Shown one piece after another: positions 3,533 through 34,461 of a stretch of DNA of 64,000 nt (position 1 is its first letter; each line of letters opens with the position of its first letter). Source of the stretch: Flavobacterium sp. (lineage in GTDB: Bacteria > Bacteroidota > Bacteroidia > Flavobacteriales > Flavobacteriaceae); NCBI GenBank assembly GCA_030591585.1, contig JAUVAS010000003.1:1-64000 (forward strand), written 5' to 3'. The position numbers and the translations under genes were made by a program. Below the pieces are notes generated by a model. It was not told where the DNA came from and did no database searches. It worked only from the letters and a program-made list of their open reading frames with translations.

Positions 3533-4729
3533 ATGTATTTTTATAAAAAAAATCCTGTTTGCTATTTCGCAGAAACTAATTTTAGACTCCAAAGAGACCA
3601 ATTTGGAATCTTATTAAAAGACCGTCTTTTCCACTTCTATATACTAGGTCGTACTGGAACAGGAAAAACCACACTTTTGCAAACAAAAATATCACAAGAT
3701 ATTTTTCAAGGACGAGGAATCTGTTTAATTGATGTTCACGGAGATTTAGTTGCTAAAGTGATGCGGAAAATCCCTAGCCATAGACAAAAGGATGTTATTT
3801 ATTTAGATGCCACTAATCCTGATTTAGAGCTTGGATACAATCCTCTTAAAAAGGTCTCTTATGAAAAACGTTCTCTGGTAACTTCAAATATTTTAGAAGT
3901 ATTTCAGAAATTATGGGGAACACAAGGGTGGGGAGTTAAGATGTCCCATATACTGCGGAATGTACTGCTTACCCTACTCGACCAACCTCGCACTTCATTT
4001 ACTGATATAATACGAATCCTTAACGATACAGAGTTCAGAAACAGTTGTATTCCAAACATTGTAAACGAAGAAGTAAAAACCTTTTGGGAAAAAGAGTTTA
4101 AGAACTATGGAAAGACAGACCTTATTCCTATCTATAACAAACTAGGCGGCATCCTCTCCTATCCGTCTGTAAAGAGAATTCTTGTTGATAATAAAAAACA
4201 AATATCTCTACGGTCGATAATCGACAATAGAAAAATATTGTTGGTAAACATTGCAAAAGGTTCTATCGGAGCTGAAGCGTCTTATATTCTGGGTTCACTC
4301 CTAGTAACATCACTATCTGCTGCTGCTTTTTCTCGTATTGATACACCCGAGGAGTTACGCCCATACTTTTTCATCTACCTTGATGAGTTTCAGAATTACA
4401 CCAACCTTTCCCTTGTAGAAATGTTATCAGAACTACGTAAGTTCCGAGTAGGAATTATTATGGCGCATCAATATATTTCACAATTAGATCCGAAAATTAG
4501 AGATGCAGTACTCGGTAACGTGGGGACAATAGTTTGTTTTCGACTTGGTCAAGCAGACGCCAAGTTTATGGAAAAAGAATTTTATCCCATTTTTGAATCA
4601 TCAGATTTTGTGAATCTCGCCAACTACGATATCTATTTAAAACTGATGATTAGTGGTAGTCCTTCAAAGGCTTTTTCCGCTTCAACCCTACTTCCTCATC
4701 AAATAAAAACACCTAACATTTTGCGTTAG
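3533..4729 (+). CDS. VirD4/TraG/HerA-superfamily ATPase (conjugative DNA transfer family)
   Basis: Walker A GRTGTGKTTLL; YFFIYLDEFQNYTN; DAVLGNVGTIVCFRLG typical of the coupling-protein/HerA superfamily. Confidence 0.8.
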   Translation: MYFYKKNPVCYFAETNFRLQRDQFGILLKDRLFHFYILGRTGTGKTTLLQTKISQDIFQGRGICLIDVHGDLVAKVMRKIPSHRQKDVIYLDATNPDLELGYNPLKKVSYEKRSLVTSNILEVFQKLWGTQGWGVKMSHILRNVLLTLLDQPRTSFTDIIRILNDTEFRNSCIPNIVNEEVKTFWEKEFKNYGKTDLIPIYNKLGGILSYPSVKRILVDNKKQISLRSIIDNRKILLVNIAKGSIGAEASYILGSLLVTSLSAAAFSRIDTPEELRPYFFIYLDEFQNYTNLSLVEMLSELRKFRVGIIMAHQYISQLDPKIRDAVLGNVGTIVCFRLGQADAKFMEKEFYPIFESSDFVNLANYDIYLKLMISGSPSKAFSASTLLPHQIKTPNILR

Positions 4730-4793
4730 TCTACCACCTAAATTTTTAATGGCTCATACTACTTGTAAATATGAACCTTTAAAAAAATAGACT

Positions 4794-5261
4794 ATGAAAA
4801 ACAAATTACCTATGCTCCACTGTTTAGGAAGCTATGTTGTAGAACTTTGTTATTCGCGACCACTGCTAAGTGAAATGTATAACGTTACATGCGCTGAAGA
4901 TGCCGAAAAGTATTTACGCCTTTTTATTAATCCTAAACAACTTGACTTGCGTGAATGCTTTTGGGTCATCTTAATGACAAATGCCAATCGTATTATAGCT
5001 ATTTCAGAAGTTGCCACAGGAACAAGTAAAGGAGTGCAACCTAATCCGAAATACATCTTTCAGTTAGCACTTTTAACAAATGCTAGTGCCATAATAGTTG
5101 CGCACTCACATCCTAGTGGAAATTTGAATATTTCTGTAAGTGATATCAAGGAAACCAGAAAGATCTCTCGAATTGCAAAAGCAATGGATATAACTCTACT
5201 CGACCACATCATTATTACCTCTGAATCATTCGTTTCACTGGCTCAAGAAAACAAGTTGTAA
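4794..5261 (+). CDS. JAB-domain RadC-family protein
   Basis: AHSHPSGNLNISVSD, SRIAKAMDITLLDHIIIT (JAMM motif). Confidence 0.9.
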   Translation: MKNKLPMLHCLGSYVVELCYSRPLLSEMYNVTCAEDAEKYLRLFINPKQLDLRECFWVILMTNANRIIAISEVATGTSKGVQPNPKYIFQLALLTNASAIIVAHSHPSGNLNISVSDIKETRKISRIAKAMDITLLDHIIITSESFVSLAQENKL

Positions 5262-5295: not shown

Positions 5296-6084
5296 ATGCC
5301 CAAAACACCCATCACCTACTATGGCGGTAAGCTTAATTTATTAAAAGAAATTTTACCTCTCATTCCTAAGCATCGAATCTATACAGAATCCTTTTTTGGA
5401 GGTGGTGCAGTATTCTTCGCTAAAGAAAAAGTAGAATCAGAAATCATTAACGATACCAATAATATGGTGGTGAATTTCTTTGAGGTAGTTAAAACAGATT
5501 TTGATCGCCTAAAGCTAAAAATTGAAATGACCCTGTTTTCAAGAGCCAGTTATAGTGTTGCTAATATGATTTACAAAATGCCACACCTGTTTGATAAAAT
5601 TCAACAAGCTTGGTCATTCTACATTGCAACCAATATGGGATTTTCTTGCCAAATAGGCTCGTGGGGTTATGACAAGTACGGTAAACGAGTAAAGGCTTTT
5701 CAAAATAAGAAACTACTTTTTAACCAAGAGATGTTTGAGCGGTTAGAAAATGCACAGATTGAAAATAATGATGCTTGCAAAGTCATTCAAAGCCGAGATA
5801 TGGAAGATGCATTTCATTATGTTGATCCTCCATATATTGATTCTAATCAAGGACACTATGGTGGCTATACAGAAAGTAATTACAAGCTATTGCTTGATAC
5901 ATTAACTAATGTCAAAGGGAAATTCCTTTTGAGTTCCTATCCTTCAGAAATTCTTACTCAATACACCAAAAAAAATGGCTGGCATACTTTAGTCTTTGAC
6001 AAACCACTCTCAGCAAAAAAAGCAGTGAAGGGAAAATCAAGAGACAGGAAAATTGAAGTACTTACTTCTAATTACCCAATATAA
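5296..6084 (+). CDS. DNA adenine methylase (D12 class)
   Basis: ITYYGGKLNLLKEILPLIP, TESFFGGGAVFF, YVDPPYIDSNQGHY. Confidence 0.9.
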   Translation: MPKTPITYYGGKLNLLKEILPLIPKHRIYTESFFGGGAVFFAKEKVESEIINDTNNMVVNFFEVVKTDFDRLKLKIEMTLFSRASYSVANMIYKMPHLFDKIQQAWSFYIATNMGFSCQIGSWGYDKYGKRVKAFQNKKLLFNQEMFERLENAQIENNDACKVIQSRDMEDAFHYVDPPYIDSNQGHYGGYTESNYKLLLDTLTNVKGKFLLSSYPSEILTQYTKKNGWHTLVFDKPLSAKKAVKGKSRDRKIEVLTSNYPI

Positions 6085-6120
6085 GTCCTTAAAAGGATAT
6101 CCAACAATTTAATAGTAACC

Positions 6121-6140
6121 CCTGTCTGCCGACAGGCAGG
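6121..6140. repeat. 20-bp palindromic repeat CCTGTCTGCCGACAGGCAGG
   Basis: Near-palindrome; this type of sequence is frequently iterated in Bacteroidota intergenic DNA. Confidence 0.6.
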
Positions 6141-6177
6141 CTTTAAAAAAAGATACTCGCTTTCTCGGGTAAAAATT

Positions 6178-6414
6178 ATGAAAAAAGTAATTGAAAAAAC
6201 TGTCAATCTTGATTTGGTTGGCGTAAATGGAAATGCCTTTATGATTATGGGGGTGTTCCAACGACAAGCCAAACGTGAAGGCTGGAGTAAAGATGAAATT
6301 GATGCTGTACTCAAAGAAGCTAAAAGCGGAAATTATGACCACTTACTTGCAACGATTATCAATCACTGCGAGGTAAAAGACGATGAATTTAATACCGAAA
6401 GCCATGACCATTAA
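6178..6414 (+). CDS. Hypothetical protein
   Basis: ORF in same-strand mobile-element operon. Confidence 0.5.
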   Translation: MKKVIEKTVNLDLVGVNGNAFMIMGVFQRQAKREGWSKDEIDAVLKEAKSGNYDHLLATIINHCEVKDDEFNTESHDH

Positions 6415-7006
6415 ACAGCTAAAATTCATTCTTCATTTTTTAAAACAACATCAAGCTGTTTTAGAAAAAAAAGTTTCGCAGGAACTCCATGAAATGTTTA
6501 AAAACTTCTTTTCACGAAAAGAATTGATTGAAATTTTGGAGCATTCCTATTTCGACCAAGATTTAGAAAAGCATCGTGTTGATACTTTAGAAAATTCTGA
6601 CTTGTTAGAATTAATAGGTGATGATTATTTTCTGCTTTCCTATCTCATTGATAAAATAGAAAGTAACATAACTGCATCGCCTACTTTATCTCAAAAAGAA
6701 ATTGAAACATTTTTTGAGAGAATTGGTTCGGAGTTACATTACCTGTTTAGTAAACCTGTAGACAAGTGGGATGAATATGATAGCAGTAATTACTATTCTT
6801 TGCTTTTCAAACACGGAAAAACTAAACGTGTATTTGCCATTTTCACATCCGATGTCGAGGAGAAAGACAAGTACGTAGTAACTACAAAACCCTCTTTCTT
6901 TTTTGATACTGAAGATGAAGCAAAAATCGAACTGAAACACATCCTTAAAAAGAATAAATTCAAAAAGGATGACCTAAAGATTATGTCTTTATGGCAAATT
7001 ACCTAG
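6383..7006 (+). CDS. Hypothetical protein (paralogous domain with 7081..7449)
   Basis: FFSRKELIEILEHSY...LENSDLLELIGDDYFLLSYLIDK resembles FFTRKDLIQIIADKH...LENKELLTIIGDDMYIISYITKK. Confidence 0.55.
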   Translation: MNLIPKAMTIKQLKFILHFLKQHQAVLEKKVSQELHEMFKNFFSRKELIEILEHSYFDQDLEKHRVDTLENSDLLELIGDDYFLLSYLIDKIESNITASPTLSQKEIETFFERIGSELHYLFSKPVDKWDEYDSSNYYSLLFKHGKTKRVFAIFTSDVEEKDKYVVTTKPSFFFDTEDEAKIELKHILKKNKFKKDDLKIMSLWQIT

Positions 7007-7080
7007 ATCTACCGATAGTAGGTAGCAAATAAACAATTTAATATTAATCAGTACCCACTCGGTACAAAAACTCAGAAACT

Positions 7081-7449
7081 ATGGAAATAAACAAGAAACC
7101 ACTGATGAAACATTTCTCAGCAGTTTTAAGAAAGCGTGCATTATCAACAGTAGAACTCAACGAGCCTATCAATCCGCAAATCCTGAAATTCTTTACTCGT
7201 AAAGATCTTATTCAGATTATTGCAGATAAGCATGATGGAACAATTCCTAAAGAGTATAATCTTGTGGAATTAGAGAACAAGGAACTTCTTACCATTATAG
7301 GTGATGATATGTATATCATTTCATATATCACTAAAAAGTGGTGTGAAGAAACCCGGATGAAAAAAGCACTGTTAAAAAGTGTTGCACAGAGTACGTCTCA
7401 AAAACCAAGTGATAAAAAACCTCTTCCAACTGGAAAAGGGAAAAAATAA
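7081..7449 (+). CDS. Hypothetical protein (paralogous domain with 6383..7006)
   Basis: Shared FFxRKxLIxII...LENxxLLxxIGDD motif. Confidence 0.55.
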   Translation: MEINKKPLMKHFSAVLRKRALSTVELNEPINPQILKFFTRKDLIQIIADKHDGTIPKEYNLVELENKELLTIIGDDMYIISYITKKWCEETRMKKALLKSVAQSTSQKPSDKKPLPTGKGKK

Positions 7450-7453
7450 GGGT

Positions 7454-7891
7454 ATGGAAGACAACTATTTAGATTTGTTTGATAACAAACAAAAAGCAAT
7501 AGACCATGCCTTGTGGCTGAACTTCAAGTATCGAATTGCCAATATTACATTTGGTGTAATACACGGCCCCGATAATAATTGGGCGGTACTTGAAGAGGCT
7601 ACTTCACTGGAAATGGAAATGCCATTTTTGGATATACTCCCAAAAGATATGTCTGGTCTGTCTTATGACAAGATCAGGCATATTAGAATGGATAGGGAGC
7701 CACTACCACATTGGGAAGAATTAACAGGAATATTCTCTTGCTTAGACGGAGAAATACTTCGGTATTTGCTTCACGCTAAGATTCCACTTGAAAAGTTAAT
7801 TCGTTTTGAATTGGCTGGCAGAGGATTTGATAAGAACCATCGCTGGTGTGGATTTGATAAAGCCAATGAAATTTGGCTCACAAATAAATAA
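7454..7891 (+). CDS. Hypothetical protein
   Basis: ORF; ATG at 7454 (MEDNYLDLFDNKQ) more likely than the track start at 7379. Confidence 0.55.
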   Translation: MEDNYLDLFDNKQKAIDHALWLNFKYRIANITFGVIHGPDNNWAVLEEATSLEMEMPFLDILPKDMSGLSYDKIRHIRMDREPLPHWEELTGIFSCLDGEILRYLLHAKIPLEKLIRFELAGRGFDKNHRWCGFDKANEIWLTNK

Positions 7892-7895
7892 GCAA

Positions 7896-7930
7896 AAAAC
7901 GCTTTTCAAATGATTAGCGTTTTTTTTTAA
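7896..7930 (+). terminator. Rho-independent terminator
   Basis: aaaaaacgct...agcgtttttttttt hairpin with T-run after the stop at 7891. Confidence 0.6.
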
Positions 7931-7931
7931 T

Positions 7932-7948
7932 ATATGGCATCTATGCAC
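7932..7948 (+). repeat. 17-bp direct repeat, left copy: ATATGGCATCTATGCAC
   Basis: Identical to 11106..11122; flanks the DUF4297-like/HerA module. Confidence 0.9.
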
Positions 7949-8006
7949 CTAAAAAAAGAACTGTTTTTAGGAATCTATAGCTTAATGGAGTATTTTTGTT
8001 ATTATT

Positions 8007-9209
8007 ATGATAGTGACTAATGAAACAAAAAATGATGGTGGGTACTATTCAATCAAAGGGTTTGCTTATCAAATAGATAAAACTATTTTAGAGCTTTTAA
8101 ATACTGATGATGAAAACCAGAATATAAACATTGAGCAAATTCAGGATATTGATTCAAGTGATTCAGTTATACAAGTTAAATATAAAGAAACTGCTAAGCT
8201 AGTTCCGTCTCAAGTGAATAAGCCAATATCACAACTCATTGAAGAATTTAAAGTAGATAACACAAAAAAATACATTTTGTATGCTTATTTTGATGACTTA
8301 AATGGATATGAGGAAAAAGTAGATCAAGATAAAAATATTTCAAAGGATACTTTGGATGAGTTTTTAGGGAATCTAAAAAATGATTTTACAGAACTGGAAA
8401 AAATAGGCTTTGTTAATAATTTTTATTTAGATTTTTCTCCAGAGTTTCAATCTCAATTTAATTCTGTAATTATAAAATTAAAAGAACAGAGTTTTATTGG
8501 GAATACTGACGAAGAGGTAATGTTTTATTATGCAAATATCTCAGATTATTTATACAAATTAGTTACAAATAATCCAACAACAGAAATTCAAAATAGGACT
8601 TGTACTCAAAAAGAAATTTTTGATTATTTAAAAAATGGAAAAAACTTAATTTTTAATTCCAGTTTTAGAGAATATCAGGGTGATAAAAAATATTTTACTT
8701 TTATTAAAAAACAGCATTTTTTAAGTAGAAATGTAGACTATTTTGAGAGATTTATTATTGTGGAATTAAGTGGGGGTGAAAGCATAGCAACGATAAAAGA
8801 GACTATCCTTAAAATTAAGGGTAAATTTTATAATAAGTCTGGTTCTTGGAGATTTCAGAGAATTAAATCGCCAGCTCCATATATTTATTTAAAAAATATT
8901 TCAGATGATAGTTTAATTCAGTTAAAAACTGAATTATTAAATGAAAGTATAATTTTCAAAGATGGTTTTGATTTTGCTGGCGCTAATTTTTCTTTAGATT
9001 CAATAAAGCAAGATTCTACAACCCACAACAATCTTTGTTTAAAATTAGTAAATAATGAAGATATTTTACAACGATTAATAAGTGAAGATTTTCAACATCC
9101 AAAGGAAATTTATCAATTTTACACAAATGAAAGTATTATAATCGAACCTGATACTAAAAATATTGAAATACAAATAAAAAACATATCAGATATTAATTTT
9201 ATTCTTTAA
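8007..9209 (+). CDS. DUF4297/Cap4-like endonuclease-domain protein
   Basis: N-terminal GFAYQIDKTILELL...IEQIQDIDSSDSVIQVKYK resembles the GxxYQ...E(x)D...QxK pattern; adjacent HerA. Confidence 0.6.
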   Translation: MIVTNETKNDGGYYSIKGFAYQIDKTILELLNTDDENQNINIEQIQDIDSSDSVIQVKYKETAKLVPSQVNKPISQLIEEFKVDNTKKYILYAYFDDLNGYEEKVDQDKNISKDTLDEFLGNLKNDFTELEKIGFVNNFYLDFSPEFQSQFNSVIIKLKEQSFIGNTDEEVMFYYANISDYLYKLVTNNPTTEIQNRTCTQKEIFDYLKNGKNLIFNSSFREYQGDKKYFTFIKKQHFLSRNVDYFERFIIVELSGGESIATIKETILKIKGKFYNKSGSWRFQRIKSPAPYIYLKNISDDSLIQLKTELLNESIIFKDGFDFAGANFSLDSIKQDSTTHNNLCLKLVNNEDILQRLISEDFQHPKEIYQFYTNESIIIEPDTKNIEIQIKNISDINFIL

Positions 9210-9221
9210 CTAAAAAATATC

Positions 9222-11000
9222 ATGACAAATTCAACTGACCAAAAACTCGCTTTCGTAACTTCCGTTTATCCAAATAAAGTAAAAATTGAAGTAGAAAATC
9301 TTACTGCTTTTAAAGATAGTATAGATGACGCACTTGGTGATTTAAAAATTGGCTCTTACCTTGAAATTTCTGATAATGAAGGATGTAAACTTATTGCGAT
9401 TATTGAAAGCTATCAAATTGAACTAAAAGAAAGAATTACAGAAGATGAACAAGGTGTCAAAAGTAAAGAAACTTACAATGCTTACGTACTAGAAGCTAGT
9501 CCTCTTGGTACAATAAAAGGTGACGAGTTTACTAGAGGTGGGGATGCTTTAACTATTCCGCCAACAGAGGTAAAACCTGCAAGTGAAGAGGATATAAAAT
9601 TAATTTATGAAAATGGGTTTGAGCCACAAGAAAAGTTTTTATTTGCAAAATTAGCGCAAGATAAAAATATTGAAGTTCCTGTAAATGGGAATAAATTTTT
9701 TAATAAACATTTTGCAGTTGTTGGGTCTAGTGGTTCTGGTAAATCTCATACCATCGCAAAAATTATACAGAAAGCTGTTGCTGAAAAAAATGGGGAATTT
9801 GAACTAAATAATTCACATATTGTTATTTTCGATATTCACGATGAATATAAAACAGCTTTTCCAGAAGCTAATTTTTTAAATATTACTAACTTAACGCTTC
9901 CGTATTGGTTATTAAATAGTGAAGAATTAAGTGATCTATTTATAGAAAGTAATGAGCAAAATTCTCACAATCAAGTTTCTCAATTTCAGTTTGCTGTAAC
10001 GGAGAACAAGAAAAAACATAATTCAGCAGTAGATCAAAATAAAATATATTTTGATTCACCTCTGAAATTCAATATAAACGAAGTTATCCAATATATAAAA
10101 AATATAAACAGTGAAGTAATAGGTCGTTTAGATGGAGAAGGTGTTCCTAAAAAATCAGATGGGACATTAATTCAAAATAGAATTGACTGTTATTTTGACG
10201 AAGATATTATATTCTGTGAACAAACTACTCGTGCAGCAAACAAATCAAGTGCAGGCCCTTATAAAGGAGATTTTGAAAGATTTGTGTTAAGGCTCGAAAA
10301 TACAGTAGGAAATAAAAGGTTTAAATTCTTGTTTGACGATAATTCTATTGAATTGAAAGATATCTTGGAAAACTTACTGGGTTATAAATCAGGTGATAAA
10401 CACAACATAACTGTAATTGATTTAAGCGGTATTCCTTTTGAAGTTTTAAGTATAACAGTTGCACTTATTTCGAGACTTTTATTTGATTACGGATATTTCT
10501 ATAAAAAATATTTAAATGAGGGTGTTGATTTAGAAACTCCGTTGTTACTTGTATATGAAGAGGCTCATAAATATGTCCCAAAAAATGATTCTGCAAAATT
10601 TAGAGCCTCAAGAAATGCTATTGAAAGAATTGCAAAAGAAGGAAGAAAATATGGAGTGACACTAGGGATTGTAAGTCAAAGACCATCAGAAATATCAGAA
10701 ACTATTTTTTCTCAATGTAATAATTTTATTGCTATGAGGTTAACAAATCCAACTGATCAGAATTATGTAAAAAGATTACTACCTGATGCTCTTGGAAATT
10801 TAATTGATAGTTTGCCATCATTACAATCAGGAGAAGGATTATTACTAGGTGAATCAATAATAATGCCTTCATTGGTAAAAATAGAGAAGTGTGACCAAGA
10901 TAAACAACCATCTTCAAATGATGTAAAATATTTAGAAACATGGAAAGAAGAATGGAAAGAAGTTAAGTTTGATGAAATTATTAAAAAGTGGAAAGAATAA
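9222..11000 (+). CDS. HerA-family ATPase/helicase
   Basis: N-terminal HAS-barrel-like region; FAVVGSSGSGKSHTIAKII; PLLLVYEEAHKYVP; GRKYGVTLGIVSQRPSEI. Confidence 0.85.
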   Translation: MTNSTDQKLAFVTSVYPNKVKIEVENLTAFKDSIDDALGDLKIGSYLEISDNEGCKLIAIIESYQIELKERITEDEQGVKSKETYNAYVLEASPLGTIKGDEFTRGGDALTIPPTEVKPASEEDIKLIYENGFEPQEKFLFAKLAQDKNIEVPVNGNKFFNKHFAVVGSSGSGKSHTIAKIIQKAVAEKNGEFELNNSHIVIFDIHDEYKTAFPEANFLNITNLTLPYWLLNSEELSDLFIESNEQNSHNQVSQFQFAVTENKKKHNSAVDQNKIYFDSPLKFNINEVIQYIKNINSEVIGRLDGEGVPKKSDGTLIQNRIDCYFDEDIIFCEQTTRAANKSSAGPYKGDFERFVLRLENTVGNKRFKFLFDDNSIELKDILENLLGYKSGDKHNITVIDLSGIPFEVLSITVALISRLLFDYGYFYKKYLNEGVDLETPLLLVYEEAHKYVPKNDSAKFRASRNAIERIAKEGRKYGVTLGIVSQRPSEISETIFSQCNNFIAMRLTNPTDQNYVKRLLPDALGNLIDSLPSLQSGEGLLLGESIIMPSLVKIEKCDQDKQPSSNDVKYLETWKEEWKEVKFDEIIKKWKE

Positions 11001-11105: not shown

Positions 11106-11122
11106 ATATGGCATCTATGCAC
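11106..11122 (+). repeat. 17-bp direct repeat, right copy: ATATGGCATCTATGCAC
   Basis: Identical to 7932..7948; contains the stop codon of the serine recombinase gene 11115..12899. Confidence 0.9.
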
Positions 11123-12899
11123 GTAACTGTAAGATGTTCACTTTTTCTTCTTTCATATAGGTTCTAACTGTGTCCAACCAACCCAGCAAAGTTGGACAGA
11201 GTGCCTTTAAAGGGGTGTTTTGTCTTTTATTTACAAGGTTATTTTTAGGTTCGACTAGTGTGTTTTTAAGCAAGAAGGTTTTTCTTCCTTTTTCAAAAGC
11301 CAATAACCATTTTGGCTTATGTACACTTAAGATTTCCTCATCCCAAATTAGGTTCGACGGAAATCTACTAAGTAGGTCTTTCTTCTCTTGTTGGGTTCCT
11401 TTTTCCATAACAGTTATAAATCCAGAACATAAATCAAGTAATGCCTCTAACTCATCATAGTAGTCATTAAAGTGTGTTTTACTTGATTCAAAATCTTGTT
11501 CTTTGAAAATTATTTCCTGATAATCAGCCTTGAACTCCACCTCAGAGATAAGTTCTAAAGTAAACATTTCTCGAAGTTTTCTCTTTTGTTTTGCCAATGA
11601 ATCTTTCTGCTGGGTCTTTGCCTTAGAATACGTTTTCTGCTCCTCTAAGGCGCTATTTTTAAGCTCTGAGAGGTGTAATTTAGCCCAATCGCATAACTCT
11701 TTTGTTAGTACAAGTGAATCTTTAAAATAATTAATCAAAAAGGATTCTACTTTCTTTTCTTCAATACACTTTATTTTAGTTGATTTTTGCTTTCGCTTTT
11801 TTAGATTGTAGTAGTAAATATAGCTAAGGTATTTTGGATTTTTTAAGTTCTTTATTAGCTTTCCACAAGAAGGACAGTCCGTTTTACTGCGATAAGAAAA
11901 CTTTTTTTTACAATCACAGATCATTTGAAACTTATGGTCTGCTCCTATATGAGATCCATTTTCACCAATTAAGAATCCAGTATAGGTAGCAGTATGCTTT
12001 TGAACTTTTGGTGTTGTTCTTGAGCTAAGCATATTTAAGAGATAATAATGTTCCTCTCTACTAATTACCTTTGGCAAACTAGAGGTGAGCTCTCTATCTG
12101 TTACTCCTATTCCATCTTCATCTTTTGAGTAAAAGAAACCAGCGTATACAGGATTCTTTAAAATATGTTCCATTAATGAACGATTGACTAATTTTCCTCC
12201 CTGTTTTTTGTGCTTTGGAGTGGTTAGAAAAAGTTCCTCTCTAGCGTACTCTGTAATAGAAGTAATGGAGTCATTTCCCTTTAGGAAGCGTAAAAATAGT
12301 ATCTTTAATTTATCAAACTTCTCTGTATCAACAAACCAACCTCGATTTCCTTTTTCTTGGGATTTATCATTAATAAACCCAAGGGGTGCTTTTCCATTTG
12401 GCAACCCATTTTTATACCGTTTCTTAAGTCCACTTTTAACAAACATACTCTTATCGTCTGAGTCTTTTTTAGACATAGTAAATTCAATCTGAAGCATCAT
12501 CTTATCGGTTGGGTTGTTATAATAAACTCTTGAAGGAGTTCTAATATGATGCAACTTCCCCATATCCATTAAATAAATAACAGTTCCCGCATCAATAGGA
12601 TTTCGAGAAAGCCGATTGGCATGATAACAAAGCCAGGCCGTTACTTTTCCATTATTAGTAAGTTGTACCAGTTTTTTAAATCCTTCTCTTCCTGGACTAA
12701 ATGCAGATTTACGCTCACAAATAGCATCTTGAAAAACAATAAGATTCTGTTTTTCAACCACCTCGTTTAAATCGTCCAATTGCCTATCAATACTTTGAAT
12801 CTGTCTGTCTTCTGATTCTGAACTTTTACGTGCATACATACCATATACTATGCTGTTGTGTTTTAATGTATTCATAGTTTTTTTAATCCTCAAAATCAC
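11115..12899 (-). CDS. Large serine recombinase (resolvase + recombinase domain + Zn ribbon)
   Basis: YARKSSESEDRQIQSIDRQ, AWLCYHANRLSRNPIDAGTV, CDCKKKF...CPSCGK; coiled-coil C-terminal part. Confidence 0.9.
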   Translation of the reverse strand: MILRIKKTMNTLKHNSIVYGMYARKSSESEDRQIQSIDRQLDDLNEVVEKQNLIVFQDAICERKSAFSPGREGFKKLVQLTNNGKVTAWLCYHANRLSRNPIDAGTVIYLMDMGKLHHIRTPSRVYYNNPTDKMMLQIEFTMSKKDSDDKSMFVKSGLKKRYKNGLPNGKAPLGFINDKSQEKGNRGWFVDTEKFDKLKILFLRFLKGNDSITSITEYAREELFLTTPKHKKQGGKLVNRSLMEHILKNPVYAGFFYSKDEDGIGVTDRELTSSLPKVISREEHYYLLNMLSSRTTPKVQKHTATYTGFLIGENGSHIGADHKFQMICDCKKKFSYRSKTDCPSCGKLIKNLKNPKYLSYIYYYNLKKRKQKSTKIKCIEEKKVESFLINYFKDSLVLTKELCDWAKLHLSELKNSALEEQKTYSKAKTQQKDSLAKQKRKLREMFTLELISEVEFKADYQEIIFKEQDFESSKTHFNDYYDELEALLDLCSGFITVMEKGTQQEKKDLLSRFPSNLIWDEEILSVHKPKWLLAFEKGRKTFLLKNTLVEPKNNLVNKRQNTPLKALCPTLLGWLDTVRTYMKEEKVNILQLRA

Positions 12900-15108: not shown

Positions 15109-15468
15109 TTAAGTTGTAATAAGCATTGGCTCAATCTCTGGAAATTTATTATATAAACTCACATAATCAGAGATAGAAGTGTAATACTCTTCCCAAGTTT
15201 GAGAAACCTCTTCAAATAGAATCATTAAATCTGGTTTTAAGTTTAAATCGAAAACCTCAAATTCCATATCGATCATCATATCCCACTGGTCTTGCTCTAT
15301 GGCAAAACTCTCTGGTCTATCTAATAGCTTACTTTGTGTTCTACTTAACTCAAAAGAAACTTTCTTTGATAAATCAATTTTTAAGATTTTTCCGAAAATA
15401 ACTTTCCCTAGTAATTCTCTGTCAAAAGTGTTCACTATTAATGAATTCTCATAAATCATTGCTTTCAT
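15109..15468 (-). CDS. Hypothetical protein
   Basis: ORF at the end of the minus-strand CARF/VWA/kinase operon. Confidence 0.5.
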   Translation of the reverse strand: MKAMIYENSLIVNTFDRELLGKVIFGKILKIDLSKKVSFELSRTQSKLLDRPESFAIEQDQWDMMIDMEFEVFDLNLKPDLMILFEEVSQTWEEYYTSISDYVSLYNKFPEIEPMLITT

Positions 15469-15594: not shown

Positions 15595-17151
15595 TTAGTT
15601 ATCCACAGATTGATTTGTAGAGAATTCATTAACTTTTTGTATTAAAAAGTCTAAAGTAATTTTGTCTGTAGGAAGGTGTTCTTGGTGTGATTTAGTTCTG
15701 TTGAGTATGAAATCAACGCATTTACCATCATTTAAAAGCTGAAACCATTTATCAGGCTCAATATTTCGAATATCTTTAGAAACATATTCCCAAAAACAAT
15801 ACGGTACTGTTGTTCCATTGCTAATCATTGTAGAATTAATTATTTTATCCTTTAATAGAATAAAACCAAATCCATGGTATTTTGTGTTTAAAATTTTTTT
15901 AAGAACTGTAGCAAGATTAGGATATTGAGGATTAGAAATTGTTCCATAAAGAATCCTAAAGGGTTGCCCCTGTTTAAAATTTTTCTTTACACGATCAGAT
16001 TCTTTTTGGACAGGATCAAATTCAATACCTTTTATTTCAATAATTTGAATTGTTCCAAAAGCTGTTGAAACTTCCTTATTAGGATAATTCAGTGCTTTTA
16101 TTTCTTGCTCTATTTTTTCAAAAGACATTTGAAATTGAAACTCTACTTGCCACAGATGCATCATAATAAACTTAGATATACTCGCACCCCAGCATCTGTC
16201 TAATGCATACGCTAATTTATGTAATATCAAATTTTGTTCAATAGCTCCATTTTCTGTAATCCATTTTTTTGTTTTTATAAGTGTTTTATTTCCAGGATAA
16301 AAATTTATTTTTGCCTTACCTTTTAATTTGTAAAAACCCTCATAGTACTGGTTAATAATTGTATTAGATAAAAAAAAGTCAAAACTACTCTTAACAAAAC
16401 TATCTACTTTTTTTGATTCCTTATCAGTAATTTCATAGGATAAAAGTTTATTTTCATAAACATATACCATGGCAGTAATACAGGCACTAACTATTGCGCG
16501 TTTCCAATTCTCAGTTAAATTCTTTTTTATATAATCATTTTCAATTTCATTAAAACCAACTATAAGAGGGATATCATGCATTTTCTTAATTAGGTTTGAT
16601 AAATTATATGAATGTGCACCACCTTTAGCATCAATTTGATTTACTTCATCCAATACTATTTGAATAGAGTTAGGCAAAGGATTGAGAAAGTATTTATTGA
16701 TAATTATCTGACTACAAGAAGATATATCTCTAGAACCATCTGTTTTATGCTCATCAAAGAATTCGAGAGCATTTGCCCCTCCACGTTCCTCTTTACTAAA
16801 ACCAAAAACTACAGAATTAGGCCAAGTAATTTTTGCTAATGCATCTTGTTTACTAGACATTAAAGTATGCTCAATCAATTCGATATCTTTCATATTTGGA
16901 GGAAGAATTGACCTAAAAAACAACTCTGCAAAATACTCGTCTAGATGTGGGTTCTTGTGTATGAGTGTTCTTTGTAGTGAACCTAATTTCTTTATATCAA
17001 ATCTTTTTGTGCCTTTTCTGTCTCTCTTATTTGCAACTTTATAAATATATTGAGCACTAGCAAAAGTAAGTGCGTTAAGCAGACCCCGTTTTTGCTTAAT
17101 AAATTGATCCGAAATTTCAACTCGATTGACTTCTATAATTGTTTTTTTCAT
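15595..17151 (-). CDS. MYG1/DHH-phosphoesterase-like protein
   Basis: TLIHKNPHLDEYFAELFFRSILPP, SVVFGFSKEERGG..LEFFDEHKTDGSRDISSCSQIIINKYF, VLDEVNQIDAKGG match the order of MYG1 motifs (H..FHCDE, VVDVG.., DHHQ, LSSAGLIY, VDAVDNG). Confidence 0.45.
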   Translation of the reverse strand: MKKTIIEVNRVEISDQFIKQKRGLLNALTFASAQYIYKVANKRDRKGTKRFDIKKLGSLQRTLIHKNPHLDEYFAELFFRSILPPNMKDIELIEHTLMSSKQDALAKITWPNSVVFGFSKEERGGANALEFFDEHKTDGSRDISSCSQIIINKYFLNPLPNSIQIVLDEVNQIDAKGGAHSYNLSNLIKKMHDIPLIVGFNEIENDYIKKNLTENWKRAIVSACITAMVYVYENKLLSYEITDKESKKVDSFVKSSFDFFLSNTIINQYYEGFYKLKGKAKINFYPGNKTLIKTKKWITENGAIEQNLILHKLAYALDRCWGASISKFIMMHLWQVEFQFQMSFEKIEQEIKALNYPNKEVSTAFGTIQIIEIKGIEFDPVQKESDRVKKNFKQGQPFRILYGTISNPQYPNLATVLKKILNTKYHGFGFILLKDKIINSTMISNGTTVPYCFWEYVSKDIRNIEPDKWFQLLNDGKCVDFILNRTKSHQEHLPTDKITLDFLIQKVNEFSTNQSVDN

Positions 17152-17162
17152 GTTTGTATGTA

Positions 17163-18020
17163 TTAACTTTTTGGTGACCTTCTAATAGAAATAAACGTAG
17201 CATCATCATTTGGCCAATCTTGACAGTTATCTTTTTGTACAATTTCACTTAAAAGATTAGTTCTAAATTCAGCTTTCCTATCATTAAACCCTGTTTGGTA
17301 AATAAAGGGGCTCTTCCTAAAAAAGAAATCTTGAAATTGGCTACTATTTTTTATTTGATTGTTTATAAACCCATCTGTAGAAATAAAGATATTGTGAAGT
17401 TTTTTCGCATCACCTGTTTTGATGAATTTTATACTATTTATTTGGTTTAAATTATATTCAGAAGCCTTTATCAATTTATTTGTGAAATATTTACCCTGCT
17501 CACTTGAAAGATTATAATGCTTCCTATTAATAAAAACATCTCCATCTCCGCAATGAAACACACAATAATACTTATCGGTAATTGCTAAAACTATAAATGT
17601 TGAAGAAAATAGATTTGATAATATAATACTTTGCTCACTTTTCCATGGACTAAATGCATTAAATAGTCTTCGGTATTGTCTAAGTAATGAATATTCAAAT
17701 TCTTTTTTGAAATTTTCTAAATTGAGATTCTTTCGCTCCAACAAACGCCGTACTATCTTGATAATAATATTACTAGCTATATGCGACCCTACCTGATTTG
17801 AAGAAAAACCATCTATGTTTTTTCCGCTAGAACATCCATCGGCAACAACTCCAACAATTAATCTTTTCCCAATATATACTCCTCCAGAATCTTGATTGCC
17901 AATACTTATGTTTTGATGAGAACTCCCTTGTTGGGACATTCCAAAAATATCAAAGGGTAACTTAGTAGCATTTTGACAATTTGATTGATAACTAATATGG
18001 TAATTAAAAAGAAATGGCAT
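17163..18020 (-). CDS. PP2C-type serine/threonine phosphatase
   Basis: GVVADGCSSGKNIDGFSSNQVGSHIAS; YYCVFHCGDGDVFIN; ISTDGF; WPNDDATFISIRR. Confidence 0.8.
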   Translation of the reverse strand: MPFLFNYHISYQSNCQNATKLPFDIFGMSQQGSSHQNISIGNQDSGGVYIGKRLIVGVVADGCSSGKNIDGFSSNQVGSHIASNIIIKIVRRLLERKNLNLENFKKEFEYSLLRQYRRLFNAFSPWKSEQSIILSNLFSSTFIVLAITDKYYCVFHCGDGDVFINRKHYNLSSEQGKYFTNKLIKASEYNLNQINSIKFIKTGDAKKLHNIFISTDGFINNQIKNSSQFQDFFFRKSPFIYQTGFNDRKAEFRTNLLSEIVQKDNCQDWPNDDATFISIRRSPKS

Positions 18021-19060
18021 TATATTTTTAAATTAAATTGTGTGATAAAATGAGATAACTCTTTCGGATCTTCTTTTGGAAAACCCATAACATCTTCTAT
18101 ACCCTCAATATGTTTGTACTTTTTAGATGTAATTTTGGGTATTTTTTTGTCTTTATTTAAACTGAAATATTTCCTTTCATTGTTTTTAAAAATATCTTCA
18201 AAAAAACATATTAAATATGGCTGAGTCATAGACAAGTATTCTATTCTATTCCACGTTTGATAGTAAAAATCATTTTTGATAATTAGAAGGTTATAATCGT
18301 TTCTTATTTTAGTATTCTCTTCTAAAGCAAATAATAAACTTATATTTTTCTCTTTCTTATAATACGAATCTGTTGGGGGGTCAGTCTGAAAAAAATAAGG
18401 GTTGGATCCTATCATCAGCTCATATGCAATAATACTTAATGAAAAAATATCGCTATCTGTTGAATAAACAAAAAATTTATTATTCCCAAAACCATCCATT
18501 TGCACCTTTGCATCTTTATATTCTTTTCTCTGAGAATTACTGTAAAAAGTACCTAATTGAGCAGAATCTATATCTACCAGAACAGGCCTTTTCTCTTTAT
18601 ATATTAATATGTTTTGAGGGTTAAGATCTCCAAGGATAATTCCAGCAGTATGTAAAATTTGGATATAGGTATATAACTCATCTATGATATTCAAAAAATA
18701 ATCATCTGACTTATTTGATTCTACAAAAGAACTTCTTGCAAGATCATAACTATACTTAGATATTTGTTGGCAACCATCAAAATATTTCATAACAAACCCA
18801 CAAAACTGCTTTGTTTTTAAATCATAAACGGGTACTTCAGGAAATGCTATAAAATTTTCAATCCCTCCAAAATCAAATTGACTAAATAATTGAATTAAAG
18901 AAAGTACCTTTTTTTCTTGATAAGGAGTTCTTTTTGAAGGGTGATATAACTTCACACATTTTTCTTTTTCCTCATTCTCCAAAAGAAAGATTTCTCCTTC
19001 TGCCCCTGACATGTTAGTTTGCTTTAATTGCAGTTTCTTATTATTAATTAGTACTATCAT
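18020..19060 (-). CDS. Serine/threonine protein kinase-like protein
   Basis: GAEGEIFLLENEEKEKCVKLY; ILGDLNPQNILIYKEKRPVLVDIDSAQLG; DIFSLSIIAYELMIGSNPYF. Confidence 0.8.
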   Translation of the reverse strand: MIVLINNKKLQLKQTNMSGAEGEIFLLENEEKEKCVKLYHPSKRTPYQEKKVLSLIQLFSQFDFGGIENFIAFPEVPVYDLKTKQFCGFVMKYFDGCQQISKYSYDLARSSFVESNKSDDYFLNIIDELYTYIQILHTAGIILGDLNPQNILIYKEKRPVLVDIDSAQLGTFYSNSQRKEYKDAKVQMDGFGNNKFFVYSTDSDIFSLSIIAYELMIGSNPYFFQTDPPTDSYYKKEKNISLLFALEENTKIRNDYNLLIIKNDFYYQTWNRIEYLSMTQPYLICFFEDIFKNNERKYFSLNKDKKIPKITSKKYKHIEGIEDVMGFPKEDPKELSHFITQFNLKI

Positions 19061-19063
19061 CTT

Positions 19064-20398
19064 TTATGTATTTAATGCATTACTAGAAAATAAACTGAAT
19101 GCTCTTCTAAGGGCTTGTTCATCATTTTGATCTATGGATATAGACTCATTAAATCCAAGTTCATTTTGTAATTCTTCAAGTGTCTCTTTAGGAAACTGAT
19201 TATTTGTAAGTCCAATTATTAAAGCTGTCTCAAGGTGTTTTTGTCCAAAATTTTCTTGCCCCCTTAACGTTTTGAAAATTTGACGAATTTTATTTATTTT
19301 AGCTTTTTTATGCCGAGAATATGCTTCTTGAATTTTCCATTTTCTATCAGTCCCTCTAATATATTTCTCAGTATTGTTAACATAAGTATCTTCTCCATCT
19401 GTGATAACTACTAAAATCAATTTATCCACCTCCATATTTTTTTTTGAAGGCATTATATACTTTTCCGAAACTAACCTTGTAGATTGCTCTATTACATCAT
19501 AAAGCGCTGTCATACCATCTGGGTAATAATTTTTAGGAGAGAGAATTTTGACTTCATCCATTTTATCTTTATCTAATATTACTGGAGCATTTAATGGTTG
19601 TATTTCGTGGTTAAAAATATATTGACATACTTTTAAATTTCTTTGTTGACAATCTCTACTACCCCGAAGTGCTGTAAGTGCTTTTATATGTGATTTTTTG
19701 ATGGTCTCTTGGACTTTTTTTACCGCTTGTTTATAATCTTCTGAAAATGGATTAGTTGCATTTTCTTGATTCTTCAAAAAAGGCCAAAGCATAGAGGAGG
19801 ATGCGTCTATTAAAACAAGAACATAAAGTATGGGTCGCTGCCTGATAATAGTTTCATATATTATTTCTTCTGAGTCTTGAGTACGCTTTTTCTTAATTTG
19901 TTCAAATCTTTCATTTGTTTGAAGCATCGATTCTAATGAATCGTGATATTGCTTGGGAATATTTTTTATACTCTTTAATTGGTAATTTCGTATTTCATGA
20001 AAATAATATTTGCAAATTTCTTTAAGTGTTAATAAAATTAAATTTGCACCATCTTTATCACTTACCTTTTTCTTATAAGCTAATCCCTGTCTTGCATCTT
20101 TAATTTTTTTAATTCCATATCTAATTTTAATGTAAATATTTTTTTTAGATGATTTGTATGTAAGTTTAGTATTTGGATACTCTCCGTGAAAAAAAGAATG
20201 GTCATAGGTTAAGTAACCCCAACTTTTTTTAAATTCTTTTGAATCTTCTTTAAGACCGCAATCATATAAACAAAAATGCTGAAGCATTGCAGTAGTAGCA
20301 TCTCGACAATCATTGATAACATCCTTTGGTTCTCTTTCTTTTCTTGAAGCAGAATGTAATTGTTCTAATATGATAAGTTCATAGTCACTTAATTTCAT
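19064..20398 (-). CDS. VWA-domain protein (TerY-P-triad-like)
   Basis: LVLIDASSSMLWPF (MIDAS DxSxS), PDGMTALYD, LILVVITDGEDTY; next to kinase and PP2C. Confidence 0.75.
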   Translation of the reverse strand: MKLSDYELIILEQLHSASRKEREPKDVINDCRDATTAMLQHFCLYDCGLKEDSKEFKKSWGYLTYDHSFFHGEYPNTKLTYKSSKKNIYIKIRYGIKKIKDARQGLAYKKKVSDKDGANLILLTLKEICKYYFHEIRNYQLKSIKNIPKQYHDSLESMLQTNERFEQIKKKRTQDSEEIIYETIIRQRPILYVLVLIDASSSMLWPFLKNQENATNPFSEDYKQAVKKVQETIKKSHIKALTALRGSRDCQQRNLKVCQYIFNHEIQPLNAPVILDKDKMDEVKILSPKNYYPDGMTALYDVIEQSTRLVSEKYIMPSKKNMEVDKLILVVITDGEDTYVNNTEKYIRGTDRKWKIQEAYSRHKKAKINKIRQIFKTLRGQENFGQKHLETALIIGLTNNQFPKETLEELQNELGFNESISIDQNDEQALRRAFSLFSSNALNT

Positions 20399-20483
20399 TG
20401 CTTATGTTTTTACGGTTAAATTGATGATCCTTTTTCAAGAGTATTTTTTTCTTTTTATTGCATATGTTTTTTATTCTCATACC

Positions 20484-21926
20484 TTAAATATTTAGTTTTT
20501 GAAGAACACTATCCCATGTTCTTTTATGGATTCCCAAAGCTTGGTACATTTTTGTTTTGTTTCCTTTAAATATCTTATATACCTTTTTATAATGAGCATT
20601 CTTTATATCCTCAATCTTTAAAGAGTGTGAACTTCCTTCAGGGAACTTAATGCGATTTGGAACAATGTCCATCGTAACTAATCCGTCCTCTTTTACATAG
20701 GTATAAAACCGCTGAATAAGATTCTCTAATTCTCTGAAATTCCCAGGAAAAGGATGCAAATCAATACAGCGCCTTACCTGTTTAGAAAAGTGTATTTTCT
20801 TTCTTCTTTTAAGTTTCCTCTTCCACTTGTCGATAAAAAAATTAAAGTATTGCTCACGTTCACCCATTGGCAGATCCATAAAGGAAACTGTCTCTATTTC
20901 TGCCACTGCCAAACGGTAATACAGGTCGTACCTAAACACTCCTTGTTCTGCTAATTCCCATAAATTTTTATTAGTTGCCGTAATAATGCGAACATCTACC
21001 TTCTTTTTTTGGTAACTCCCCATGGGAGAAACTTCTCCATCCTGAAGAACTCTAAGTAAGGTTTGCTGCAACTTTTTAGAGATATCTCCAATCTCATCTA
21101 AAAATAATGTTCCTGTATGTGCCTGCTCAAAAGCTCCTTTGTGATCTGAAATTGCTCCTGTAAACGAGCCTTTCACATGACCGAAGAGTCTACTTTGTAA
21201 TAACTCATCATTAAGAGCTGCACAGTTGATGGCTAAAAATATTTTATCTCTACGAGAAGATTCTTTATGAATATGTTTGGCAATCCATTCTTTTCCAGTG
21301 CCTGTTGGACCCAATATTAATGTCGTAATGGGATATGGGTCTGCAATCGCAGTGGCTAAATCATAGGTAGATTCAATACTTTTTGTTTTAAAAATATCTT
21401 TTGATTTTACAGGCTCTTTTTGAAGTTTCTCTCTAACCGCATGAGTATTACTAATATTCGAAGTATTAACCTCTACAATCTCCTTGGAATAAATTCCTGC
21501 TTTTCTGTGTCTGGGGGGAGCTACTTGGAATAATTTTATATTAGGAAATTCAAAGGCTAATAAATACCATGCCGTCTGCATCGCAGGGGTACCAGGAGAG
21601 ATAAAAATTTCTACATCCTGATCACTATATTTTAATAACAATGGGCGTAGTTTTTTTTGTAACTCTTGAATACTAATAACATTTTTAATTTCTAAAAAAG
21701 TAGGAATTACTTTTTTTTGATACTCCTTTTTTAAATATGCGCATAAATGAGTAAAATAGATATCTCCTTCATTTTCATTAGAAGAACACAAAAAAATATG
21801 GATGTCATAATCAAAGCCCCTCTGATATAACTCTCCATGAGTTCCATTTTCATTAACCCCACTTCTACGACCTTCTTTAAATGTGTAATCGTGTGTCTTG
21901 GCCTCCCATGATATTAATATTTTCAT
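20484..21926 (-). CDS. RtcR-like sigma-54-dependent activator with N-terminal CARF-like domain
   Basis: N-term IFISPGTPAMQTAWYLLAF (CARF-like); LILGPTGTGKEWIAKHIH, FGHVKGSFTGAISDHKGAFEQAHTGTLFLDEIGD, RYDLYYRLAV. Confidence 0.8.
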   Translation of the reverse strand: MKILISWEAKTHDYTFKEGRRSGVNENGTHGELYQRGFDYDIHIFLCSSNENEGDIYFTHLCAYLKKEYQKKVIPTFLEIKNVISIQELQKKLRPLLLKYSDQDVEIFISPGTPAMQTAWYLLAFEFPNIKLFQVAPPRHRKAGIYSKEIVEVNTSNISNTHAVREKLQKEPVKSKDIFKTKSIESTYDLATAIADPYPITTLILGPTGTGKEWIAKHIHKESSRRDKIFLAINCAALNDELLQSRLFGHVKGSFTGAISDHKGAFEQAHTGTLFLDEIGDISKKLQQTLLRVLQDGEVSPMGSYQKKKVDVRIITATNKNLWELAEQGVFRYDLYYRLAVAEIETVSFMDLPMGEREQYFNFFIDKWKRKLKRRKKIHFSKQVRRCIDLHPFPGNFRELENLIQRFYTYVKEDGLVTMDIVPNRIKFPEGSSHSLKIEDIKNAHYKKVYKIFKGNKTKMYQALGIHKRTWDSVLQKLNI

Positions 21927-27855: not shown

Positions 27856-29286
27856 ATGCTAAAACTACTGATAGAAACACTCAATGATATCTTAAAAGGA
27901 AGTTTAGACTTATTTATTGATGGCATCGATAGCCTGACAGGCAATAACCAAAGCGGTGATGCAAGTTTCGGAAACCCAAACAATCTTATTTCAAAACGAA
28001 ATAAAGGGTGGTGTGTGGACGGAAAACGATTTTTAGATATCCAAACTAGTAGACGTAATTTTTGTGTGGTCGCTGGCTCTGGAAAAGGAAAAACACAGGT
28101 ACATATTTTTCCGACACTTCTAAATTCTGACTCCTCAATGGTTGTTAATGATAACAGCTCTGAACTTGCCGCTACAATTCCATACCTCCAATCCAAAGGA
28201 GTTAAAACTCTAGTGATGAATTTAACCAAAACCAGTGGTGTTTATCTAAATCCACTTGATAGCTGTCGTGGTGATATCTCTGCTATGCGTAAGATTACCA
28301 AAACACTTATGGGAAATGCTTCAAAACAGGCGGATTTTTTCTCGCTATCTGGAGAAGATTGTTTAACTCTTTTCATACAGTTTGTATTAGAATCATTGCC
28401 TCGCATTCACGCTAATCTAGGAAATGTTTATTTCCTTATTTTAGAATATCAAGGCTCACCAAAAGTTATTGAACGCCTTATGGCAAAAAAGGCCTCCGAA
28501 TCTGTTTGGCAAAAGTTTAAAGCACTTTCAGGAAATTCAGAACGCACCCTAAAATCAATAACTGCAACAAGTTTGTCAGCACTTTCTTGGCTTGGTGATA
28601 ATCCAACCCTTGCAGACATTACATCGCTTACCAATATTTCTTTTGAAGATTTTAGAGAATCACAGCATTGTCTGTTTATACAATCTCCCGCATCAGATGC
28701 TAAATTCTACGCCTCTATGGTTTCTTTGGTGTTTCAGAGTTTTTATCGCTTTGCTTTTTCTAGCTTACCTAGTGAAAAAGACTTGGATATCATGATGATT
28801 TTGGATGAATTTTCTTCCCTGATTGACGGTCTTCCAGACTACAGTCAAACAATTTCTAACAGCCGAAAGTTCAAGATTCCACAGTGTATAATTTTACAAG
28901 ATGAATCTCTACTTAGCCCCTATAAAGAACTAAAAGATAATATTCTTCAGAACTGTTTTGTGAAGTGTTATTACGGAGGACAAGATAAAAAAGCATTTGA
29001 ATTGGAACGGCTTTTAGGTAGCTATCAGTACATCGACAAGGACAGCAAGCAAAAGAAAAAACGCCCACTAATGCACGCCTCTGAAATTCGTGAATTAGAT
29101 AATCAGATTCTTGTACTGCCCAATGGACAAAAACCCTTAAAGGTAAGAGTTACTCCAGCCTATAAACAAAGACGCCTTAGAAAGCAATTGGCAATGGAAT
29201 TACAAGACAATCAAATAGGCGATGTTGCGAAATATACTATTCAATACATCGACCTAAAACCTTATCGTAAGGAAGATAAAAACTAA
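27856..29286 (+). CDS. Type IV coupling protein, TraG/VirD4-like
   Basis: NFCVVAGSGKGKTQVHIFPTLL; IMMILDEFSSLIDGLPDYSQTISNSRKFKIPQCIILQDESLL. Confidence 0.85.
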   Translation: MLKLLIETLNDILKGSLDLFIDGIDSLTGNNQSGDASFGNPNNLISKRNKGWCVDGKRFLDIQTSRRNFCVVAGSGKGKTQVHIFPTLLNSDSSMVVNDNSSELAATIPYLQSKGVKTLVMNLTKTSGVYLNPLDSCRGDISAMRKITKTLMGNASKQADFFSLSGEDCLTLFIQFVLESLPRIHANLGNVYFLILEYQGSPKVIERLMAKKASESVWQKFKALSGNSERTLKSITATSLSALSWLGDNPTLADITSLTNISFEDFRESQHCLFIQSPASDAKFYASMVSLVFQSFYRFAFSSLPSEKDLDIMMILDEFSSLIDGLPDYSQTISNSRKFKIPQCIILQDESLLSPYKELKDNILQNCFVKCYYGGQDKKAFELERLLGSYQYIDKDSKQKKKRPLMHASEIRELDNQILVLPNGQKPLKVRVTPAYKQRRLRKQLAMELQDNQIGDVAKYTIQYIDLKPYRKEDKN

Positions 29287-33567: not shown

Positions 33568-34398
33568 ATGGCAATAAATGAATTCGCTTATAAAACAGAA
33601 TTTTTTAGTTTTAAATTTGATATATCATTAGATCAAATTATAAAAACAGTAGATGAAATAAATAGTGCTTATTTCAATAACTCAAACTTAGAAATAAGCT
33701 TTTCTTCTCTTGAAGAGTCCTTTATAAAGTTGACAGTTAAAGAATTTATTGAATTATACAATACATTCTTTCCTAATATTAATATGATTAGCTTTAATAT
33801 TCATAAGGATGTCACATCTTTTTCGATCAATTTTCAATACCGTAATCATTCTGTTGGTGCTAACGGAAATTTTTCTATTTATGCAGGTTCGATAGAAAAC
33901 AATAGGGCTATTGAAAAAATTATAAGAGAGAATCTTCCATTAGAGAGCCCAAAACAAATTGCTTTAGAAACTGAAATAGTGGTTTCTCCAATTTTCAATG
34001 CTCGGAATTTTAAAATAAAAGAAAAGTATTGTTTTGTATTGATGCCATTTACACTCAAATGGTCTAACCGTGTCTATAAACATCTAAGAGGAATCGTCAA
34101 TAATCTAGGATATAACTGTGAAAGAGCAGACAACTTATTTGGAAAAAATATTCTAGAAGATATTTGGTCAGCAATAAATGAAGCTGAAATTATTATTGCA
34201 GATGTAACAGCAAAAAACCCAAACGTATTCTATGAAATAGGTATTGCTCATACTTTAGGAAAAAAAGTGATATTAATTACCCAAAGTTCTGCAGATATCC
34301 CATTTGATTTTAAAGGATATAGGCATGTTATTTATGAAGATAATGTAGATGGTTTTAAGATTTTAGAAGATACTATTCCAAAGTATTTTAAGAGTTAA
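33568..34398 (+). CDS. Nucleoside 2-deoxyribosyltransferase/TIR-like fold protein
   Basis: CFVLMPF...NCERADNLFGKNILEDIWSAINEAEIIIADVTAKNPNVFYEIGIAHTLGKKVILITQ. Confidence 0.65.
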   Translation: MAINEFAYKTEFFSFKFDISLDQIIKTVDEINSAYFNNSNLEISFSSLEESFIKLTVKEFIELYNTFFPNINMISFNIHKDVTSFSINFQYRNHSVGANGNFSIYAGSIENNRAIEKIIRENLPLESPKQIALETEIVVSPIFNARNFKIKEKYCFVLMPFTLKWSNRVYKHLRGIVNNLGYNCERADNLFGKNILEDIWSAINEAEIIIADVTAKNPNVFYEIGIAHTLGKKVILITQSSADIPFDFKGYRHVIYEDNVDGFKILEDTIPKYFKS

Positions 34399-34461
34399 AC
34401 ATTATGAAAACTAATTTTAAATCTTATGAAATTACTACCTTCGTAGGTTCAAATTCAGCTT

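Follow-up and report, generated by a model that had tools for sequence, protein, structure and literature searches.

What does the gene block at positions 15595-21926 of a 64,000-nucleotide (nt) stretch of Flavobacterium sp. DNA (contig JAUVAS010000003.1, positions 1 to 64,000; hereafter the window) encode, and which of its genes form a unit? Open reading frame (ORF) calls on the window gave five minus-strand ORFs, coding for an activator, a VWA-domain protein, a Ser/Thr kinase, a PP2C phosphatase and a protein of 518 amino acids (aa), at the positions given by a first-pass annotation of this DNA. The intergenic gaps, from the activator to the 518-aa gene, are 85, 3, -1 (a one-base overlap) and 11 nt; the earlier figures of 85, 3 and about 0 stand, and the last one, 12 nt, is corrected. 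We found that the four genes downstream of the activator recur in the same order in two phyla. They were compared with three other loci: L054 and L055 (Bacteroidota) and L056 (Chloroflexota).

20484..21926, minus strand: CARF-AAA+(sigma54)-HTH (helix-turn-helix) activator, RtcR_PspF2-like, 480 aa (Pfam, PADLOC, motifs)
20399..20483, minus strand: activator-VWA gap, 85 nt, straddled by a 19-nt direct repeat
19064..20398, minus strand: VWA-domain protein, 444 aa (alignment of the metal ion-dependent adhesion site, MIDAS, with L054 and L056)
18020..19060, minus strand: YegI/TerY-P-type Ser/Thr kinase, 346 aa (PF00069; BLASTP to YegI)
17163..18020, minus strand: PP2C-family phosphatase, 285 aa (PP2C_2; PphC homology)
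15595..17151, minus strand: 518-aa protein, assigned to an undescribed family (alignment with L054, L055 and L056)

Conservation of a four-gene cassette

Three full-length relatives of the 518-aa protein were found, with 45% (L054), 45% (L055) and 42% (L056) identity. A draw across the class, in which 394 other genomes were searched, yielded the first two; the third, from an Anaerolineales metagenome-assembled genome, surfaced when 84,980 species genomes were scanned with a pattern. No relative was present in a draw across the phylum (395 other genomes), in another 129 genomes of the Chloroflexota class to which L056 belongs, or in plasmids, phages and viral contigs, and an initial genome-contig scan with the single 518-aa query sequence returned none. 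Because the family is rare and patchy, its distribution suggests spread by horizontal transfer.

L054 and L056 exhibit VWA, kinase and PP2C genes followed by genes for 525-aa and 528-aa homologs, respectively, in the same order as in the window. L055 starts inside the homolog gene at a contig end, which leaves its upstream genes out of the comparison. The arrangement is thus beyond chance, the four downstream genes recurring in order across two phyla. The place of the activator is variable: in L054 a CARF-sigma54 activator lies directly beyond the 3' end of the 525-aa gene, on the opposite strand and convergent, and in L056 none is found on either side of the cassette. Since the block order is kept in both loci and the activator is not, the conserved unit is the four genes, to which two Bacteroidota loci add the activator as a further layer of control. 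The five-gene linkage proposed at first therefore holds in part. The first-pass annotation had offered a neighbourhood analysis as its check, a lack of joint conservation counting against it; this analysis found VWA, kinase, PP2C and 518-aa genes kept together in L054 and L056, with the activator outside the core. No description of the four-gene unit was found in the literature searched.

The activator and the kinase-phosphatase triad

The AAA+ core of the activator matched PF00158 (Sigma54_activat, 5.5e-62, Pfam), and the protein carries a Walker A motif (GPTGTGKE), a GSFTGA loop, a Walker B motif (FLDEI) and the CARF motif SPGTPAM. Whole-protein scores to a CARF-sigma54 model are not diagnostic, as ordinary NtrC-type proteins score equally through their AAA domain, and the N-terminal 170 residues were therefore scanned alone. 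They matched PADLOC RtcR_PspF2 (1.8e-14) and Csx1/Csm6 (9.9e-8), which identifies the N-terminal domain, by sequence, as a CARF domain with the SPGTxxM motif and bears out the original identification of a CARF-sigma54 activator. The architecture, with CARF, sigma54 AAA+ with a GAFTGA-type loop and HTH in this order, is that of the RtcR_PspF group, and the PADLOC PDLC01995 match spans the whole length of the protein. Unlike RtcR, the activator scored 252 bits with NCBIfam NF038308 against a cut-off of 650 and is not an RtcR ortholog; RtcA and RtcB are absent among the ORFs adjoining its gene, and the genes it accompanies are those of a kinase-phosphatase cassette, not RNA repair or restriction-modification (R-M) genes. 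The CARF domain of RtcR binds tRNA halves bearing a 2',3'-cyclic phosphate (PMC7790460).

The L054 homolog (L054:7319-8740) showed 39% identity overall and 36% within the CARF domain. A CARF-AAA-HTH model search of 396 genomes gave at least three clearly full-length matches in a list swamped by AAA-only NtrC-type proteins, and activators of this kind appear rare. RpoN is encoded in the host genome of the window.

Two Bacteroidota relatives of the activator, at loci L060 and L061, stand divergent from Type I R-M operons, an arrangement with published precedent (PMC4012209). In L060 a near-perfect -24/-12 sigma54 promoter, TTGGCACTGGGCTTGCA, lies at 7938-7954 (minus strand), between the activator (8036-9496) and hsdM (6370-7845), and faces hsdM; it scored 13.9 of 14.5 on a scale of our own, with 0 of 300 shuffles as good. 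It gives direct sequence support for a predicted sigma54-inducible restriction. The L060 R-M operon also contains a TIR-domain gene (4306-5253). In L061 a 914-aa fusion protein (5908-8652) combines an N6-adenine methylase, a Type I specificity-like domain and a C-terminal histidine-kinase-type ATPase; its gene, the unassigned 312-aa gene after it and then hsdMS are all divergent from the CARF-sigma54 activator.

Other sites next to activator genes were also noted. A sigma54 promoter in the 85-nt activator-VWA gap was considered and rejected, no credible -24/-12 site being present. The 19-nt direct repeat at this gap (20393-20411 and 20453-20471), with 89% identity between its copies at a spacing of 60 nt and one of them covering the VWA start codon, is possibly an operator, or a chance repeat in AT-rich DNA. 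Immediately 5' of the activator gene in L054, a perfect 15-nt inverted repeat with a 7-nt loop, TAATCAATAAATGAT (L054:7263-7299), is possibly an enhancer or autoregulatory site.

The VWA, Ser/Thr kinase and PP2C identities of the first-pass annotation were all confirmed. The MIDAS of the VWA protein is intact (D198-S200-S202, T297 and D334; DxSxS...T...D) and is kept in L054 and L056, whose homologs are 36% and 43% identical to it. Pfam gave no VWA match for the window protein and a weak PF00092 match for the L056 homolog; an N-terminal extension of about 180 aa is common only to the Bacteroidota relative and missing in the Chloroflexota protein. The kinase matched PF00069 (1.3e-11, Pfam) and E. 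coli YegI (BLASTP, 4e-11), with K37, E49, D145, N150 and D163 kept in three loci. The phosphatase matched PP2C_2 (7.8e-18, Pfam) and is homologous to E. coli PphC (1e-6), its metal motifs ADG, GDGD, TDG and DDA all being kept in relatives.

The three gene classes in one operon, the mobile and defence setting and the intact catalytic motifs are those of TerY-P modules, both CoCoNuT-borne and stand-alone antiphage. The TerY-P kinase is defined by a C-terminal zinc ribbon fusion, or by an OB-fold in the stand-alone defence form (PMC11090510). The window kinase exhibits no zinc ribbon: its last approximately 55 residues hold no cysteine, hence no Cys pairs, no second Pfam domain was matched, and a normal OB-fold would not fit into this tail. 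The triad is therefore better called TerY-P-like than canonical TerY-P, so that the earlier assignment stands for the gene combination and not for the kinase C-terminus. The E. coli yegI-pphC-yegL cluster shares the homologous kinase and phosphatase and a VWA gene, with the differences that YegI is longer and has further domains, that the VWA proteins could not be aligned by BLASTP, and that it has neither the 518-aa partner nor the CARF activator present in the window. RtcR-like CARF proteins and TerY-P triads co-occur in Type II CoCoNuT superoperons (PMC11090510), and the combination of CARF activator and triad is for this reason not new. The ORFs in and immediately beside the operon include no McrB-like GTPase, McrC, CnuH or CnuE of CoCoNuT Type II or III-A. 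What is new here is the constant fourth protein, of a new family, and the occurrence without McrBC or CoCoNuT genes.

The 518-aa protein and its possible relation to MYG1

Searches of Pfam, NCBIfam, PADLOC and PHROGs, and of the PDB sequences, returned nothing for the 518-aa protein, which is classed on these results as a member of an undescribed family. In the four-member alignment the invariant residues include H65, H69, D71, E72, D133, E134, H135, E169, N171, D174 and H180, a set typical of a metal site. The N-terminal half carries the motifs H65-K-x-x-H69-L-D71-E72, D133-E-H135, SCSQ (145-148) and E169, N171 and D174, and the C-terminal half a conserved GFG...DK...WFQL...NRxKxHQE series of unknown kind. 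The order and spacing of IHKNxHLDE, VxFG and [FY]DEH recall those of THxGxFHxDE, DVGG and RFDHH in the MYG1/DHH superfamily, from which the family differs by the lack of a hidden Markov model match, the lack of the motif-II Asp, DEH in place of DHH, and an extra C-terminal region of about 270 aa.

This motif order, already pointed out in the first-pass annotation, was compared with nine bacterial MYG1 proteins assembled from plasmid records, a hand-written family consensus being used as bait for the search only; plasmid records were taken because a PF03690 search of 61 genomes was silent, as were its controls. In our own profile-profile alignment, MYG1 positions 2-76 span positions 57-144 of the family, and THxGxFHxDE/IHKNxHLDE, RTRD/LMSSKQD, DVGG/VFGF and RFDHH/FFDEH were paired unsupervised. 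The score was 22.4, compared to 12.8 (standard deviation 1.9) for column shuffles, of which 2 in 1,200 were as high (p about 1e-3); with other gap settings 0 to 3 of 100 shuffles were as high. In the same test the z-score was 5.5 for MYG1 and the 518-aa family, 4.3 for the genuine pair NrnA-RecJ and 1.2 for NrnA-MYG1. General DHH profiles did not match the family (NrnA, z 0; RecJ, z -0.9), which means that the family, if DHH at all, is MYG1-like. The alignment test was picked after MYG1 had been proposed and its settings were the analyst's own, and the result is therefore treated as suggestive.

Several results speak against a MYG1/DHH assignment. None of the four family members matched PF03690 or PF01368 at E<=10, and HMMER found no match between the family and MYG1 in either direction, a sub-threshold alignment of MYG1 members falling on motif I. 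The profile comparison proposed as a check did not sustain the assignment, since hhalign gave a non-significant E of 0.26-0.29, with motif I as the best local match. The position of the motif-II Asp is occupied by Phe or Gly, and the DHH motif reads DEH, with the second His position varying as K/H/H/G. AlphaFold models of the 518-aa protein were too poor (pLDDT, the predicted local confidence, of 34 with one sequence and 45 with four), and Foldseek matches of these low-confidence models are meaningless. An apparent enrichment of DHH proteins among weak HMM matches was discarded after a rank test (p=0.84). The motif order seen at first is thus visible and reproduced by an unsupervised alignment, without HMMER or hhalign significance and without the motif-II Asp; the identity is suggestive, and we consider the presence of a MYG1/DHH-type domain slightly better than an even bet.

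Setting, proposed function and alternatives

The block lies among mobile and defence genes of the window:

5296-6084: D12 methyltransferase
8007-11000: HerA + DUF4297 anti-phage pair, a known defence cargo, beside the serine recombinase
11115-12899: serine recombinase
15109..15468, minus strand: 119-aa ORF outside the cassette, 126 nt downstream of the 518-aa gene, with no family match in Pfam, PADLOC or NCBIfam
27856-29286: conjugative coupling protein

A TPR histidine kinase/response regulator adjoins the operon. L054 has homologs of the coupling protein and of two genes next to it (E 1e-29, 3e-4 and 2e-10), and the L054 cassette is flanked by relaxase and tyrosine-integrase genes; the cassettes in the window and L054 therefore ride a mobilisable element. 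The L056 neighbours differ, comprising a DNA polymerase B gene, a gene for an SNF2/methyltransferase protein and a caspase-like gene. The last, a Peptidase_C14 (caspase) + Lcl_C gene (L056:11685-12965), lies 139 nt downstream of the cassette on the same strand and could code for an additional effector.

The gene content, the conserved catalytic residues, the conservation of the block and the mobile setting, all observed in this analysis, led us to a tentative reading, which we hold at a little under even chances: a mobile defence or stress cassette in which a putative metal-dependent nuclease or phosphoesterase is induced by a ligand and gated by phosphorylation. From the protein families we infer ligand sensing by CARF, sigma54 induction, reversible phosphorylation organised by VWA and a metal-dependent effector. 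The CARF domain would bind a nucleotide or RNA-fragment signal arising in infection or nucleic-acid damage, and the ligand-bound activator would switch on sigma54-dependent transcription. The metal-dependent VWA protein might scaffold the kinase and the PP2C, which would add phosphate to a target and remove it again, the 518-aa protein being the most probable one; this protein, as a metal-dependent DHH/MYG1-like phosphoesterase or nuclease, would destroy nucleic acid and end the infection or the cell. Yeast MYG1 is an antiviral 3'-5' RNA exonuclease (PMC10089162), a precedent which makes the guess of a defence nuclease attractive if the MYG1 link holds. In a bolder proposal, and a somewhat unlikely one at present, the 518-aa protein would be the first of a new family of antiviral nucleases of MYG1/DHH-like type, which a dedicated kinase-phosphatase-VWA module switches on and off and which, in sigma54 hosts, is also induced through a CARF activator that senses RNA damage; if true, one nuclease would be under a two-layer gate, transcriptional and by phosphorylation. 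TerY-P modules are scattered through defence loci, and no target of their kinase and phosphatase is known. In the loci compared here the triad keeps the same single partner from one phylum to another, and the 518-aa protein is therefore the obvious candidate substrate or effector. The locus also extends the cargo of CARF-sigma54 activators beyond restriction and CoCoNuT genes.

The lack of a significant family match, including by hhalign, the missing motif-II Asp and the fact that residues 240-518, half of the protein, form an unrelated conserved region would all be expected if the 518-aa protein were no nuclease but a structural sensor, adaptor or phospho-substrate of new fold, with the triad as a TerY-P-type phospho-switch that targets this protein or something else in the cell and serves stress rather than antiviral functions. 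This alternative is a real possibility that we still rate as doubtful, since the invariant His/Asp/Glu cluster of H65, H69, D71, E72, D133 and H135 is typical of a metal site, and the MYG1 profile alignment scored above nearly all shuffles, with a z-score exceeding that of NrnA-RecJ.

Transcriptional control by the activator is questioned by other data. No sigma54 -24/-12 site of above-chance quality was found within the window, the L054 activator sits convergent at the other end of the cassette, L056 has no activator in a genome with no rpoN match, and relatives of the activator control R-M systems; it might therefore be an independent defence-island neighbour with no control over the four genes. 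We regard this as rather unlikely, because the activator adjoins the cassette in both complete Bacteroidota loci despite its apparent rarity, and in the window is co-directional with it across only 85 nt. The genes might otherwise serve the transfer or maintenance control of the mobile element itself, as the homologous coupling protein and neighbours, the L054 relaxase and the adjoining TPR histidine kinase/response regulator would allow. The Chloroflexota cassette stands among different genes, which argues that it is not tied to the transfer machinery of one element and makes this last explanation improbable.

Two further loci of the window were noted. A 1521-aa protein (50173-54738) contains a Schlafen/UvrD (GajB-like) helicase stretch at about 500-765 and an AAA_21/AbiLi-type ATPase at 1190-1521; its gene adjoins an HNH gene (49246-50007) and a DUF3226 gene (54750-55400), and the locus is possibly a fused defence system. 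A GHKL-ATPase protein with a weak HSDR_N_2-type match (34462-36480) follows a weakly nucleoside-deoxyribosyltransferase-like gene (33568-34398), and this pair (33568-36480) looks like another uncharacterised defence-type pair.

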